From Thermoplasmatota archaeon (GTDB taxonomy: Archaea; Thermoplasmatota; Thermoplasmata; RBG-16-68-12; JAJISG01): a DNA stretch of 18,647 bases. Of the stretch, positions 3,364 through 6,959 are shown piece by piece (position 1 is the first letter of the stretch; every line of letters begins with the position of its first letter). The position numbers were made by a program, and so were the translations under genes. The stretch is taken from contig JAJISG010000075.1 in assembly GCA_022848835.1 (NCBI GenBank), positions 1-18,647 on the forward strand, written 5' to 3'. The notes below the pieces were generated by a model. It was not told the origin of the DNA. It worked only from the letters and a program-made list of their open reading frames with translations, and searched no databases.

Positions 3364-3585
3364 GTGGTAATGGAACCTATAAGCGCGGAGAGGGCTATCG
3401 AGATTGCGCGACAGAAGGGGCTTTTGCCTGGAAGGGTGAGAGGCACCAACGGCATTCAGTTCACCAAGGGTAGCAACGAACGCCTTGAGGTCATCTCCTG
3501 GGATGAGTTTAGGCAACTCCTTGCGAGGAGGGGCCTTCAGGTGTACGAGAGCGGCGGCTGGATGAAGATAATGAAGAGGAAGTGA
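3364..3585 (+). CDS. Small conserved-looking protein, 73 aa, function unknown
   Basis: I do not recognise the family. The protein is soluble and basic, with a predicted helix at the start (SAERAIEIARQKGLL), a middle segment GIQFTKGSNERLEVISWDEF, and a C-terminal pattern FRQLLARRGLQVYESGGWMKI that looks like helix plus beta hairpin. This suggests a small alpha/beta or winged-helix-like fold. It has its own TATA-like box and a strong Shine-Dalgarno GGAGGGTG at 3352-3359. That spacing suits the GTG at 3364 best; ATG 3370 is the alternative and removes two residues. The ATG at 3362 is followed at once by a stop. It is convergent with the GHKL ATPase gene, with 14 nt between stops. Expression signals and normal composition support a real gene. 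Confidence 0.75.
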   Translation: MVMEPISAERAIEIARQKGLLPGRVRGTNGIQFTKGSNERLEVISWDEFRQLLARRGLQVYESGGWMKIMKRK

Positions 3586-3599
3586 GAGTCCCTCTCTCC

Positions 3600-5228
3600 C
3601 TACAGTTCCTCCTCTGCTCTGATCTGAGCCTCGATGGCGGCCTCCAGTAACTTAGCCTCGTCCTCAGTGCCGTTGTAGCACTGAAGGACTAGCTCCTTGG
3701 TGTATAGCTTCAGGAGGTACCTGTACCACCTCCTGTGTGTAACACTCTCCCTCTCATAGTCGGGATGACCCTTGTTGATGTAGACCATGTGCTGATTGGG
3801 AGCATACCTGGAACGCCAGGACACACCGTCGGTGATGAACTCTGGAAGGGGAAGGCCTACCAGGCGCCTCCTCTTGAGTCCACTAGTGCCCCCGTTACCC
3901 TTGGATGCCGGTCTCTTCACAACCCCTGTGGAGGCTCTTCGAACCGGTGGGCCAGCTATGAAGAGGGAGTCCGGTCTGTTCTTCGCAATCCTGAAGATGT
4001 CCAGATGGGGCAGCTCACGACACACCCTCTCCAGGTCCCCCTTGAGCCTTCTGATGACCCGCCTCAGACCGACCTTCTCCCGCTGAGCGTCCTGAATCTT
4101 GATAATGCTGCTCAGCTCTTCTTCGATGCCCTTTAGCGCGTTCACGAAGGTGTGATACCTCTCATCTTGGAGGAACTGCCCCCGAGTGGGCCCCGAAAGC
4201 CTTCCGCCGTCGAACCTCACCCAACCCTGTATCCTCCTCACATCCCACGGAGGGCAACGCAGCTCCTCAATCTCCGTGATGCTCCTGTAGACACGAGTCG
4301 CCCCGGCGCCCTCTTCCTTGGCCCTCAGGACGGGCACTACGGCGTTCGAGTCCTCCTTCTCCAAGACGTAGAGCTCAAGACGCACGGGACCGTAGTCGGT
4401 GAGCAGGGTGGGCCTGTGGAAGAGAGCCCCCTCGAAGGCCCTCTCCTTCGGGATGACATCGTACTCCTTGCTCCGGTCCCTCACCCTGACGGTGAGGCCC
4501 TTCTCCAGCAGCCTGCTCCAAAGCTCCTCTTCGATGGCCTTCTTCACTTTAGGTCCCGTCCACACCCTGGGATTCCGAAGTTTTCTGATCGTGATAGCTG
4601 TCCCTGGGTCGTTCCTCCCGCCCTTCGACCTCTCTATGTGAGCCGTCAAGGTCTCCGCATCGATCCTCAGTGTGTAAGTGGAGGACTTGCCGTTCCTGGG
4701 TAGGTCATACTGCTCTGAGAGGCTGGGGTAGCCTCCGTAGTCCGTCCTCGTCTCGATGATCATCTCTCGGCCTATGGTCCTGAAGCCGAACAGTCCCACG
4801 GCAAACTCTCCTTGGGCACCCTTGTAGTCCTCAAGCTTGCCCTTGAAGGATTTCGCGACTCTGGTGATCACCCCTTTCAAATCTGGAACTCCCCTCTCAT
4901 CGGGAACGAAACCGCGGCCGTGGTCCTTGATTGTGATGTAAGAGTCCGAGCCACGCCTCACTATCCTTACTTCGATGTGGCCCCTCATCTCGTAGCCCGG
5001 AGGGTACTCGTCGATGGCGTTCTCCACCTGCTCCAGAAGAGCCTTCCATGGACCCTGGCTATCGGCCAAGAGTTTGATGGCTGCTATCCTGTCCCCTATG
5101 TCAGCCTGGACCTCTATCTCGGCAGCCTCAGGTAGCTTCCGGGACCTTCGAAGGGCTTTGAATATCCTCCGGAAGGCCCGTCTCAGTCCGGAGAGGGCTC
5201 CTCCCTTCTTCCTTGAAGCGGGCTCCAC
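3600..5228 (-). CDS. GHKL-superfamily ATPase (Hsp90/MutL/Topo VIB-like fold), 542 aa, role unknown
   Basis: The N-terminal 230 residues carry the Bergerat ATP fold: N-box LLEQVENAID with Glu66 (general base) and Asn70 (Mg), G1 box KDHGRGF with Asp102, a G2-like glycine loop GAQGEFAVGLFGFR at 137-150, and a later GTAITI at 209-214. Residues 230-370 look like a transducer or middle domain, ending GWVRFDGGRLSGPTRGQFLQD. A basic linker near 410-450 leads to a C-terminal helical domain ending in an acidic helix. The first 35 residues are very basic. No histidine-kinase, DHp or topoisomerase partner is nearby. Start GTG 5228 has a TATA-like box centred 29 nt upstream, so it is probably leaderless. 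The ATPase fold is confident. The role is not known; DNA repair, chaperone or defence functions are all possible for this fold. Confidence 0.85.
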   Translation of the reverse strand: MEPASRKKGGALSGLRRAFRRIFKALRRSRKLPEAAEIEVQADIGDRIAAIKLLADSQGPWKALLEQVENAIDEYPPGYEMRGHIEVRIVRRGSDSYITIKDHGRGFVPDERGVPDLKGVITRVAKSFKGKLEDYKGAQGEFAVGLFGFRTIGREMIIETRTDYGGYPSLSEQYDLPRNGKSSTYTLRIDAETLTAHIERSKGGRNDPGTAITIRKLRNPRVWTGPKVKKAIEEELWSRLLEKGLTVRVRDRSKEYDVIPKERAFEGALFHRPTLLTDYGPVRLELYVLEKEDSNAVVPVLRAKEEGAGATRVYRSITEIEELRCPPWDVRRIQGWVRFDGGRLSGPTRGQFLQDERYHTFVNALKGIEEELSSIIKIQDAQREKVGLRRVIRRLKGDLERVCRELPHLDIFRIAKNRPDSLFIAGPPVRRASTGVVKRPASKGNGGTSGLKRRRLVGLPLPEFITDGVSWRSRYAPNQHMVYINKGHPDYERESVTHRRWYRYLLKLYTKELVLQCYNGTEDEAKLLEAAIEAQIRAEEEL

Positions 5229-5544: not shown

Positions 5545-5629
5545 GCGGCGGTAGCCAAGCCAGGTCAACGGCGCTAGATTCAGGGTCTAGTCCCATAGGG
5601 GTTCCCAGGTTCGAATCCTGGCCGCCGCA
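5545..5629 (+). tRNA. tRNA-Leu, anticodon CAG
   Basis: An 85-nt class II tRNA. The acceptor stem GCGGCGG/CCGCCGC is perfect. The D stem is GCC/GGC. The anticodon stem CTAGA/TCTAG closes the loop TTCAGGG, giving anticodon CAG, which reads CUG. A long variable arm CCC-ATA-GGG and a T arm CCAGG-TTCGAAT-CCTGG follow. The discriminator is A, as for leucine. CCA is not encoded. No intron is seen. The 3' half of this gene, from the anticodon stem to the discriminator, recurs twice downstream, so the gene probably serves as an integration site. Confidence 0.96.
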
Positions 5630-5646
5630 TTCACTGGAACACATGT

Positions 5647-5901
5647 CTAGTCACGATATATTGTCCGCCTGTGGCCCACTGTTAGGATGTAGATCGTCTT
5701 GCTCTCCCAATCTACATCCACAATGACGCGATAATCTCCCACACGAATCTTGAAGGCATCCACTCCCCTGAGTCGCGACAGGTAGCGACGCGGGCGTTCG
5801 GCGACCTGCTGCAGTTTCTTGGCAAGCCTTTCCTGGGTGTCTCCGGCTAGCTTCTCGAACTTGTCTGCCGCCAGCCGAGAGAACTCCACCTGGAAGGGCA
5901 A
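5647..5901 (-). CDS. RelE/ParE-superfamily toxin (module 1)
   Basis: An 84-aa protein of the usual size for RelE-type toxins. It opens with PFQVEFSRLAADKFEKL and ends FKIRVGDYRVIVDVDWESKTIYILTVGHRR, the core beta-sheet pattern (RVGDYRVIY...VGHR) of archaeal RelE homologues. Family members cleave mRNA in the ribosomal A site or act as gyrase poisons; the archaeal type is usually an endoribonuclease. The arginines of the C-terminal strand (RVGDYR, GHRR) are candidate active-site residues. The start is TTG at 5901, since no ATG lies in frame after the preceding stop; GTG 5889 is an alternative. It begins 4 nt after the antitoxin stop. Its 3' end lies only 18 nt from the tRNA-Leu gene. Confidence 0.9.
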   Translation of the reverse strand: MPFQVEFSRLAADKFEKLAGDTQERLAKKLQQVAERPRRYLSRLRGVDAFKIRVGDYRVIVDVDWESKTIYILTVGHRRTIYRD

Positions 5902-5905
5902 GAAG

Positions 5906-6130
5906 TCACTCGCCCCGGAGCAGATCGCTCATGGGGACGGACTTTCCTTCCCGAATCTGACGACGGCTGAGAAATATCTCCTCAATAGTCTCCAGACTGA
6001 GCTCCTCCTCTAAGGCCCGGGCGAGGACATAGCGCACGAATTCGGATTTCGACGGGAATCCTCTCTGCCTGGCCGCTTCAGCGATGAGCTCTGCCAGTTC
6101 CGGCGTTACCTTGAGGCTGATGGTCTTCAC
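5906..6130 (-). CDS. Ribbon-helix-helix antitoxin (module 1)
   Basis: A 74-aa protein starting MKTISLKVTPELAELIAEAA (GTG start at 6130). The first strand KTISLKV and the helices LAELIAEAARQRGFPSKSEFVRYVLARALEEE form a ribbon-helix-helix DNA-binding unit. The acidic C-terminal segment SLETIEEIFLSRRQIREGKSVPMSDLLRGE should wrap and neutralise the toxin. It is first in a two-gene operon with the RelE toxin, as is normal for these modules. A direct repeat of GTATTAC spaced by one helical turn lies just upstream and is a good candidate for its own operator. Confidence 0.9.
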   Translation of the reverse strand: MKTISLKVTPELAELIAEAARQRGFPSKSEFVRYVLARALEEELSLETIEEIFLSRRQIREGKSVPMSDLLRGE

Positions 6131-6138
6131 TCTCTATG

Positions 6139-6156
6139 GTATTACGGTCGTATTAC
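6139..6156 (-). promoter_or_regulatory. Promoter/operator of module 1: GTATTAC direct repeat
   Basis: The heptamer GTATTAC occurs at 6139-6145 and 6150-6156, an 11-bp period (one helical turn). The minus-strand reading GTAATAC overlaps the likely TATA box, centred some 20-26 nt before the GTG start. Ribbon-helix-helix dimers typically bind such one-turn repeats, so this is a likely autoregulatory operator. Confidence 0.5.
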
Positions 6157-6203
6157 TTAGGCTTTCCCGGATGAGGTCCCTCCCAATGAACCGACTAGGA
6201 AGA

Positions 6204-6262
6204 GCTAGATACAGGGTCTAGTCCCGTAGGGGTTCCTAGGTTCGTAATCCTGGCCGCAGCAT
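6204..6262 (+). repeat. Copy 2 of the tRNA-Leu 3' half (attachment-site-like repeat)
   Basis: This stretch matches tRNA positions 5573-5630 at 54 of 58 bases plus one inserted T in the T loop. It starts exactly at the 5' side of the anticodon stem and ends one base beyond the discriminator. The anticodon stem CTAGA/TCTAG, the variable arm and most of the T arm can still form. The 5' half of a tRNA is absent upstream. It most likely is an attachment-site remnant from insertion of the interval 5631-6262 into tRNA-Leu. Confidence 0.9.
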
Positions 6263-6300
6263 AAACCGTAAGATGACTTTCGATCCCCATCCAAAAGATT

Positions 6301-6573
6301 CTATCGATAATCCCTGCCTCGGCGGAACACCTCGATCACCTTCACATCCGTCTCCTCGATTAGGTACACGACTCGATACGCACCGACACGCAGTCGATGC
6401 TTCAGAGGCTTGGTGCCCACCAAACGCTTGATATCCACTCCTGACCTGGGCCTGAGAGGGTCTTTGGACAACTCCCCCAGTCTATTGACAATCTTCTCCC
6501 GCTGGGCTTCATCGAGCCGTCTGAGCTGTTTTGTGGCTGTCTCGGACAGGAGAATCTGGTACGACAAACGCAT
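6301..6573 (-). CDS. RelE/ParE-superfamily toxin (module 2)
   Basis: A 90-aa protein: MRLSYQILLSETATKQLRRL, then a helical hairpin DEAQREKIVNRLGELSKDPLRPRSG, then LKHRLRVGAYRVVYLIEETDVKVIEVFRRGRDYR. The RVGAYRVVY strand and C-terminal Arg-rich FRRGRDYR are characteristic of RelE endoribonuclease toxins. It is clearly different from the module 1 toxin (shared motifs only), so the two modules were acquired separately rather than duplicated. ATG 6573 follows the antitoxin stop by 30 nt, with AGGTCGG just before it as a weak Shine-Dalgarno sequence. Confidence 0.9.
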   Translation of the reverse strand: MRLSYQILLSETATKQLRRLDEAQREKIVNRLGELSKDPLRPRSGVDIKRLVGTKPLKHRLRVGAYRVVYLIEETDVKVIEVFRRGRDYR

Positions 6574-6603
6574 CCGACCTGACTGTAGTGATAGGCGCCG
6601 CCG

Positions 6604-6801
6604 TCAGAGATTCTCCAACGGAATGAACTTCTCTTCCTCGAGAATCCGGTTCCACCTTCTGTTGAGTTCTCTCATTGAAGCTTGTTCTACAAGGCGCCGA
6701 ATGATTTGATCATAGGTATCACCTTTCTTCCCGAACTCCTTAAGTAACTCCTTGGTTTCCCGCCGCACGGAGATTGTAGTCACATCTGGCATAACGACCA
6801 T
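6604..6801 (-). CDS. Small VapB/RelB-like antitoxin (module 2)
   Basis: From ATG 6801 the protein is 65 aa: MVVMPDVTTISVRRETKELL, then KEFGKKGDTYDQIIRRLVEQA, then an extended charged tail RELNRRWNRILEEEKFIPLENL. The pattern TTIxVxxETKxxLxxFxxKGxTYDxIIxxL is the archaeal antitoxin family often paired with RelE or PIN toxins. A TATA-like CTATAAGT centred about 26 nt before ATG 6801 supports that start; ATG 6792 (MPDV...) is equally acceptable to the family. A longer frame from 6876 would include the TATA box and has hydrophobic residues unlike an antitoxin, so it is rejected. The partner toxin follows 30 nt downstream. Confidence 0.85.
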   Translation of the reverse strand: MVVMPDVTTISVRRETKELLKEFGKKGDTYDQIIRRLVEQASMRELNRRWNRILEEEKFIPLENL

Positions 6802-6822
6802 GGACAATATAGATAGCATGAT

Positions 6823-6830
6823 ACTTATAG
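6823..6830 (-). promoter_or_regulatory. TATA-like box of module 2
   Basis: Minus-strand CTATAAGT is centred about 26 nt upstream of ATG 6801. Confidence 0.55.
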
Positions 6831-6903
6831 TTGCATGGAAAAGAGGGCACCGCCCAATTTCAGTCGTAATCAACAAGGTCCGCGTAGAGTAGCTACAGTT
6901 GAA

Positions 6904-6959
6904 GCTAGACTTGCGGTCTAGTCACGTAGGGGTTCCCGGGTTCGAAGCCTTGCAACCGC
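6904..6959 (+). repeat. Copy 3 of the tRNA-Leu 3' half, more decayed
   Basis: Aligned without gaps to 5573-5628, 45 of 56 bases match. The anticodon stem CTAGA/TCTAG is intact but the loop is changed (CTTGCGG), and the T-stem and acceptor 3' strand carry several changes. It shares G with copy 2 at the variable-arm position where the intact gene has A. The greater divergence fits the oldest attachment-site remnant in the array. Confidence 0.8.

Follow-up and report, generated by a model that had tools for sequence, protein, structure and literature searches.

Toxin-antitoxin cassettes bounded by 3'-end copies at archaeal tRNA genes

The tRNA-Leu(CAG) locus of the window

The window, i.e., the whole 18,647-nucleotide stretch of DNA that was analysed, is contig C260 of G000, the draft genome of an uncultivated archaeon (1.46 Mb; completeness 94%). 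It holds a single tRNA gene, tRNA-Leu(CAG), which is followed on the same strand by two copies of its own 3' half, whereby each copy closes a short interval that contains one predicted toxin-antitoxin (TA) pair (Table 1). A repeat search identified a 56-nt unit in three in-register copies, at 5573, 6204 and 6904, and both downstream copies start at nt 29 of the tRNA, which is the first base of the anticodon stem. In BLAST comparison with the intact tRNA, copy 2 matches in 53 of 58 columns (91.4%) and copy 3 in 45 of 56 (80.4%), and in searches of their own genome these copies were found with E values of 3.9e-17 and 1.8e-8, respectively. No 5' half of the tRNA was detectable in the 40 nt upstream of copies 2 and 3 (shuffle p 0.97 and 0.09). 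A sequence-only reading of this DNA had described an intact tRNA-Leu with two direct repeats of its 3' half starting at the anticodon stem, which ARAGORN, the repeat search and BLAST confirm; its count of 45/56 for the second repeat is correct, while the 54/58 given for the first is to be replaced by 53/58. Between positions 5000 and 8000, the repeat search for terminal inverted repeats gave only one imperfect 18-nt inverted pair, located outside the cassettes.

Table 1. Features at and near the tRNA-Leu(CAG) locus, in window positions
Feature	Positions	Strand	Basis
73-aa gene anchoring the syntenic tRNA-Leu(CAG) locus, outside the cassettes	3364..3585	+	12-genome alignment
Intact tRNA-Leu(CAG), putative attachment site	5545..5629	+	ARAGORN
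Cassette 1 body, 574 bp, tRNA to copy 2	5630..6203		bounded by repeats
TA1 toxin, predicted ParE/RelE superfamily, 84 aa	5647..5901	-	PF05016 ParE_toxin, 1e-13
TA1 antitoxin, predicted ribbon-helix-helix, 74 aa	5906..6130	-	PF01402 RHH_1, 2.3e-7
Copy 2 of the tRNA-Leu 3' half (nt 29-85)	6204..6261	+	BLAST, 91%
Cassette 2 body, 642 bp, copy 2 to copy 3	6262..6903		bounded by repeats
TA2 toxin, predicted ParE/RelE superfamily, 90 aa	6301..6573	-	PF05016, 8.7e-8
TA2 antitoxin, predicted DUF7557/VapB-like, 62 aa	6604..6792	-	PF24434, 2.9e-5, just under family cut-off
Copy 3 of the tRNA-Leu 3' half (nt 29-84)	6904..6959	+	BLAST, 80%

Both TA pairs point leftward, one per interval, and each combines a toxin domain with a neighbouring small gene for an antitoxin of DNA-binding type. 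The TA1 toxin matches solved chains of E. coli RelE (e.g., 4v7k, 2.6e-8) and the TA2 toxin has one solved relative (1wmi chain A, 1.1e-5), hence TA1 and TA2 are predicted type II TA pairs, with family membership as the guide to their function. As had been claimed from the sequence, the antitoxin families differ between the two pairs, being ribbon-helix-helix for TA1 and DUF7557/VapB-like for TA2. The two pairs are also placed alike, with toxin stops 17 nt (TA1) and 39 nt (TA2) from the preceding tRNA sequence, and antitoxin starts that were measured at 73 and 111 nt from the copy that follows, instead of the 74-103 nt stated earlier.

Empty, filled and tandem sites in related genomes

The corresponding loci of relatives were fetched via the 73-aa gene, the best 80 of 123 being considered. 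The tRNA-Leu(CAG) gene resides downstream of it, at a distance of up to 2.5 kb in 40 of the 80 and of up to 3 kb in another five, and just upstream of it in locus L155. No tRNA-Leu half copy was found in the former 40 loci, scanned from 2 bp to 10 kb downstream, as contigs allowed, the best downstream repeats in these measuring 16 nt (L135, E 0.001) and 24 nt (L151, E 0.008); longer fetches for G003, G008, G013, G018 and G034 showed no copy either, and placed a TSUP-type gene 2-4.5 kb past the tRNA. The locus is occupied in G000 by two TA cassettes, in G001 by a 9.3-kb interval with molybdopterin oxidoreductase and Fe-S genes, and in G011 by a 6.5-kb interval with an open reading frame (ORF) of 1804 aa and a RelE homologue separated from the copy by 94 nt. 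The tRNA-Leu of G017, at a different genomic place, has a 0.55-kb interval behind it with one ORF, leftward and of 153 aa. The 1.3 kb to the right of copy 3 showed no similarity to the sequence that lies past the copy in G001. The sequence-only reading had asked for relatives with no or other cassettes at this locus, and would have been contradicted by a block that is ancestral and never empty; copy-free syntenic loci, the islands of G001 and G011, and empty next to filled states with the same right flank at tRNA-Ala (see below) were all seen. These comparisons support the view that the Leu block of the window was probably inserted and is not ancestral, with the right boundary of the copy-free loci not resolved to the base. 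In L135 (10320-10600), two hairpin-like units of ~92 bp come after tRNA-Leu(CAG), and the final 14-16 nt of the tRNA recur at the end of each unit.

The clearest series of states comes from tRNA-Ala(GGC), which has purF just upstream in 12 of 21 scanned genomes. As this site was found via a RelE search, its share of TA genes is biased, the insertion pattern being unaffected. In coordinates that count from the first base of the tRNA, the tRNA-Ala of G036 continues straight into the flank (nt 52-1565, 88% to the flank of G029) and the site is thus empty; in G024 the tRNA likewise runs straight into the flank, here with deletions. In G028, G022 and G030 the tRNA is followed by a cassette termed beta, a 3' copy and then the common flank, with a Fic cassette in this place in G031 and one with HxlR and SnoaL genes in G021. 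Tandem states were found in G029, with the order beta, copy, alpha, copy, flank, and in G032, with the order alpha, beta, Fic, and alpha also comes first in G033. Homologues of the left flank (purF or a GNAT gene) were seen in G036, G031, G028, G022, G029, G032 and G033 and not seen in G021, G024 and G030. Compared across genomes, as proposed earlier, the tRNA-Ala cassettes each end in a 3' copy, with the common flank behind.

The gene products of beta are a DUF7557 antitoxin and a ParE toxin, those of alpha a MazE-like antitoxin and a PIN-like protein whose PIN_3 match falls just short of the cut-off. From 3' end to 3' end, the length of beta is 707 bp in G029 and 708 bp in G032 and that of alpha 947 and 939 bp, with the order of the two being opposite between these genomes; the other beta cassettes measure 711 bp (G028), 618 bp (G030) and 590 bp (G022). 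Between G029 and G032, the beta DNA shows 89% identity across 783 columns that comprise the module and both bounding repeats, compared with 76-80% between the beta of G029 and its counterparts at this tRNA in G028, G030 and G016. By this swap of beta and alpha, the array is modular, with one site per cassette.

The same module was also identified at another tRNA. The TA pair at tRNA-Pro(TGG) of G000 is the beta pair, with 58 of 73 antitoxin and 61 of 80 toxin residues identical to G032, and it lies in the opposite orientation relative to the tRNA; as the same pair is found at Ala and Pro, one module family occupies different tRNAs in two families of the order, Ala in one and Pro in the other. 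At Leu, Thr(GGT) of G013, Ser and Pro the TA genes point leftward, with the antitoxin start ~55-125 nt before the copy, whereas beta at Ala points rightward and, in G029 and G032, has 21 nt between its toxin stop and the copy. The copies differ in extent as well. Some begin with the anticodon stem (nt 29 for Leu, nt 26 and 29 for Thr), a second set further in (nt 41 for Pro, nt 37 and 42 for two Ala copies), and the rest close to the T-loop (nt 50-53 for the other Ala copies, nt 54 for Thr(GGT) of G011, nt 68 for Ser). A start at the anticodon stem, as claimed for the window, is hence true for the window copies, while starts at nt 37-68 occur elsewhere. Similarly, the claimed rise of divergence with distance is seen in the window, with two points only (91% then 80%), and fails in the tRNA-Ala arrays, where the three copies of G032 are all 100% identical over 24-25 nt and those of G029 reach 100, 88 and 95%.

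For a census of such copies, Rfam-tRNA loci with 1.5 kb on each side were examined in G000 (all 27), G013 (best 30 of 63, minus 5 on a tRNA-cluster contig) and G011 (best 30 of 39), amounting to 85 unique tRNA genes. The contig left out, G013:C94 (L328, L333, L334, L338, L339), is 5.5 kb long, crowded with tRNA genes and possibly from another organism or a virus; it gives many weak matches, none at E<1e-4. At E<=1e-4, eight same-strand downstream 3'-end copies were found at seven tRNAs, and none upstream or antisense of the 85 genes. Five of the eight intervals contain TA genes, namely two at tRNA-Leu of G000 and one each at tRNA-Pro of G000 (beside a methyltransferase piece), Thr(GGT) of G013 and Ser(GGA) of G011; one, at Thr(TGT) of G011, has a Fic/Doc family gene, that at tRNA-Ala of G013 a 336-aa gene with no Pfam match, and that at Thr(GGT) of G011 a gene for an RRM protein. 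The latter tRNA (L348:1501-2790, G011:C50) has two tandem intervals, each with a gene for a small RRM RNA-binding protein. Approached from the toxin side, a search with both toxins in the same three genomes (E<=1e-6) gave 12 loci, 6 of which, the 6.5-kb interval of G011 included, are enclosed by a tRNA and its 3' copy.

Altogether, 22 bounded cassettes were counted, some of them found via toxin searches: 13 with TA genes, three with Fic and six with other genes. They are distributed over Leu (two in G000, one in G017), Pro (one), Ser (one), Thr(TGT) of G011 (one), Thr(GGT) (one in G013; two in G011, the second copy with E 0.007 only; one in G017, E 0.001) and Ala (12, i.e., one each in G013, G021, G022, G028, G030, G031 and G033, two in G029 and three in G032). 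The long Leu islands of G001 and G011, the third G029 interval, a weak G024 copy and the beta pairs of G009 and G016, for which no bounding copy was found, are not part of this count. The earlier notion of cassettes made of TA pairs thus holds for 13 of 22, and 6 of 22 have neither TA nor Fic genes. Taken together, the census and the count support the view that cassettes bounded by 3'-end copies are probably general at tRNAs of this order of Thermoplasmata, at least the Leu, Pro, Thr, Ala and Ser tRNAs being used. With G017 and a few others as exceptions, these genomes are drafts, so that an assembly error is possible at a single locus; for the whole pattern, which was seen in many independent genomes, it is unlikely.

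These data also bear on an origin by tandem duplication, in which entire tRNA genes would have been copied along with their neighbours and the 5' halves lost subsequently, an origin which the sequence-only reading had named as contrary to its own. Copies that reach into the D-arm would fit such an origin; they were identified in G001 and at G000:C72b (shuffle p 0.003 and 0.005), and the G017 copy matches its own tRNA from nt 16. The paralogous genes of the two RRM cassettes in G011 would fit it as well. However, copies 2 and 3 of the window have no 5' half upstream and the antitoxin families of TA1 and TA2 differ, for which reasons duplication was rejected for the window; neighbouring cassettes are otherwise mostly unrelated, and the tRNA-Ala of G036 abuts the flank directly. 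Contradicted at tRNA-Leu in G000 and at tRNA-Ala, this origin is left only for the RRM pair and is highly improbable as a general explanation.

Copies of the Leu 3' half were also observed away from tRNA genes. At G000:C72 (L047:3224-3278 and 4575-4639), two of them flank a leftward 368-aa ORF with no tRNA there, within 2.6 kb between two genes whose G001 homologues are 94 bp apart (tblastn). A block of ~315 bp ending flush with the tRNA-Leu(CAG) 3' half is repeated with 68-90% identity at several non-tRNA sites (L049, L050, L051, L052, L055 of G002 and G014; L066 of G007); at least some of its copies contain a leftward ORF of ~75 aa, and its first ~30 nt recur elsewhere. As a parent element this block was set aside, intact tRNA-Leu being absent from the fetched surrounding stretches. 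A decayed Leu 3' half lies between a VOC-type gene and a DsrE gene (L114:4278-4332, G000:C271), and a homologue of this VOC-type gene also adjoins the G001 copy (L044:1958-2458). A tRNA-Leu-like gene that ARAGORN missed resides at G000:C175 (L116:6319-6348), its anticodon apparently TAA and its T-arm region containing an insert; it recurs at matching positions in G001 and G013 (L117, L118). Neither this gene nor the tRNA-Leu of G010:C9, which an insert splits, is a 3' copy, and both were set aside.

Recombinase searches and the route of insertion

Insertions at tRNA 3' ends are discrete, precise and repeated, and modules are shared by different tRNAs. The core of the sequence-only reading, serial TA cassettes without an integrase of their own that are bounded by 3'-end copies at tRNAs, held in every test run. 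For the window, we consider it somewhat probable that the block consists of two serial TA cassettes inserted at tRNA-Leu(CAG), with an integrase acting in trans as the most likely agent. The unit would be one TA pair plus one tRNA-Leu 3'-half copy, ~0.6-0.7 kb in size, and such units would have been inserted one after another. A circular cassette would recombine with the tRNA via the common 3' segment, which is the simplest conceivable route to a restored tRNA on the left and a 3'-end copy on the right; by this outcome each newer insertion would push older cassettes outward. The TA genes may then hold the cassette in place by addiction, and a tyrosine-type integrase may be supplied in trans by other elements, an agent that takes the lead because archaeal elements commonly use tRNAs in this way (PMC6563490). 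The Leu and Thr repeats, 45-58 nt long, fall within the 29-69 bp that the same source gives for crenarchaeal att sites.

Searches for the recombinase were carried out with the profile PF00589, integrase families outside it not being searched. As claimed earlier, no integrase was found to be encoded in the cassettes, since none of the 22 intervals has a PF00589 match; the search of the host genome that had been proposed gave none either, the 94%-complete draft G000 having no match at E<=1. Among the 12 genomes with bounded cassettes (G000, G011, G013, G017, G021, G022 and G028-G033; completeness 64-94%), ten have none at E<=0.01, and the matches in the remaining two (12 in G011, 2 in G033) lie outside the cassette intervals. 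Viral carriers were rejected, as viral contigs gave no exact match to a degenerate pattern of the tRNA-Leu 3' half; no relatives of the TA1 and TA2 toxins were found in these contigs (phage records not searched), and the beta toxin has one weak partial relative there (40% over 35 residues). Plasmid carriers were rejected with no match for the TA1 antitoxin, the beta antitoxin having one 38% match on a Methanohalobium plasmid.

Several observations weigh against serial insertion by an integrase in trans. No recombinase for the presumed movement emerged from the searches, which covered PF00589, and no excised or circular form of a cassette was seen. The differing copy extents and TA orientations imply that one recombinase may not account for all cassettes, and more than one recombination system may be behind the extents. 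Six of the 22 cassettes contain other genes, two Leu intervals are as long as 6.5 and 9.3 kb, some copies reach into the D-arm, and the Leu 3' halves at non-tRNA sites are unexplained.

An integrase could be dispensable if circles with a tRNA 3' end recombined by host homologous recombination, the 3' end being the only site needed. In favour of this are the ten genomes without PF00589 matches and the lack of a demonstrated integrase supplier, the common stretch at tRNA-Ala, which extends past the tRNA end (e.g., 75-76 nt between G032 3' ends, 83-87%), and the use of at least five tRNA kinds. On the other hand, most of the common stretches measure 18-58 nt, which is short for homologous recombination, repeats that end with the tRNA 3' end usually point to an integrase, and the drafts are incomplete and were searched with PF00589 only, hence integrase-free insertion is considered doubtful. 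A further possibility is accretion and decay, whereby full-size integrase-bearing elements would have entered in turn and shrunk to att scars and TA genes. The long Leu islands and the methyltransferase piece beside the tRNA-Pro pair are consistent with it, as are the tandem integration and tRNA targets known from archaea (PMC6563490). Independent decay does not, however, predict that beta and alpha keep their unit length in different array positions; this modularity at tRNA-Ala speaks against it, and the cassettes end flush at tRNA 3' ends without a PF00589 match in any interval. Decay is thus regarded as an unlikely source of the pattern.

Comparison with known systems

Among the closest counterparts of serial cassette insertion are tRNA-targeted archaeal elements such as the integrated mobile genetic elements of Thaumarchaeota, for which integration into the 3' part, a restored tRNA, a far-side repeat and tandem arrangement are likewise described (PMC6563490). 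An intact tRNA with a 3' copy at the far end was found in the window and the census, and an empty site with the same flanks at tRNA-Ala (G036 versus G028, G030, G031 and G029), but the cassettes reported here comprise one TA pair or 1-2 genes in ~0.6-1.4 kb, are modular and order-swapped, and have no PF00589 match that would point to an integrase of their own. Integron cassettes, archaeal ones included, are also small units of one gene or one TA pair with one site each in arrays that grow from a fixed end, and TA genes are common in both, TA proteins making up 10.5% of archaeal integron cassette proteins with predicted function (PMC9668308). Archaeal integron arrays depend on intI and attC (PMC9668308), whereas the site here is the tRNA 3' end, with several attachment genes per order. 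IntI was not found, PF00589 being the profile used to find it and giving no match in 10 of the 12 hosts, and no attC was seen by inspection, with no attC model run. Casposons are archaeal, as are these cassettes, and some insert at tRNA 3' ends; their target-site duplications are short, and the repeats here are much longer, the intervals hold TA or few small genes, and the window array has no flush terminal inverted repeats, no search for Cas1 having been made. Tycheposons of Prochlorococcus are integrative elements at tRNA genes with cargo as well, but measure several kb or more and have their own recombinase, compared with the sub-kilobase TA units described here. Searched titles and abstracts, with subscription journals mostly outside the search, contain no description of integrase-less TA cassettes at tRNA genes.

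A broader proposal is that tRNAs serve as integron-like platforms without a dedicated integrase, where TA-stabilised cassettes circulate among tRNAs and lineages and the 3' end is a general site for host recombination or a yet unrecognised recombinase; this is conceivable and put forward tentatively. If serial insertion holds true, the units, consisting of one TA pair and a tRNA end, would be among the smallest that integrate at tRNAs, and integron-like cassette arrays would be possible without an integron. It would also give a concrete route for the spread of chromosomal TA pairs, and the empty, single, tandem and order-swapped states at tRNA-Ala make the movement of chromosomal TA loci directly testable.

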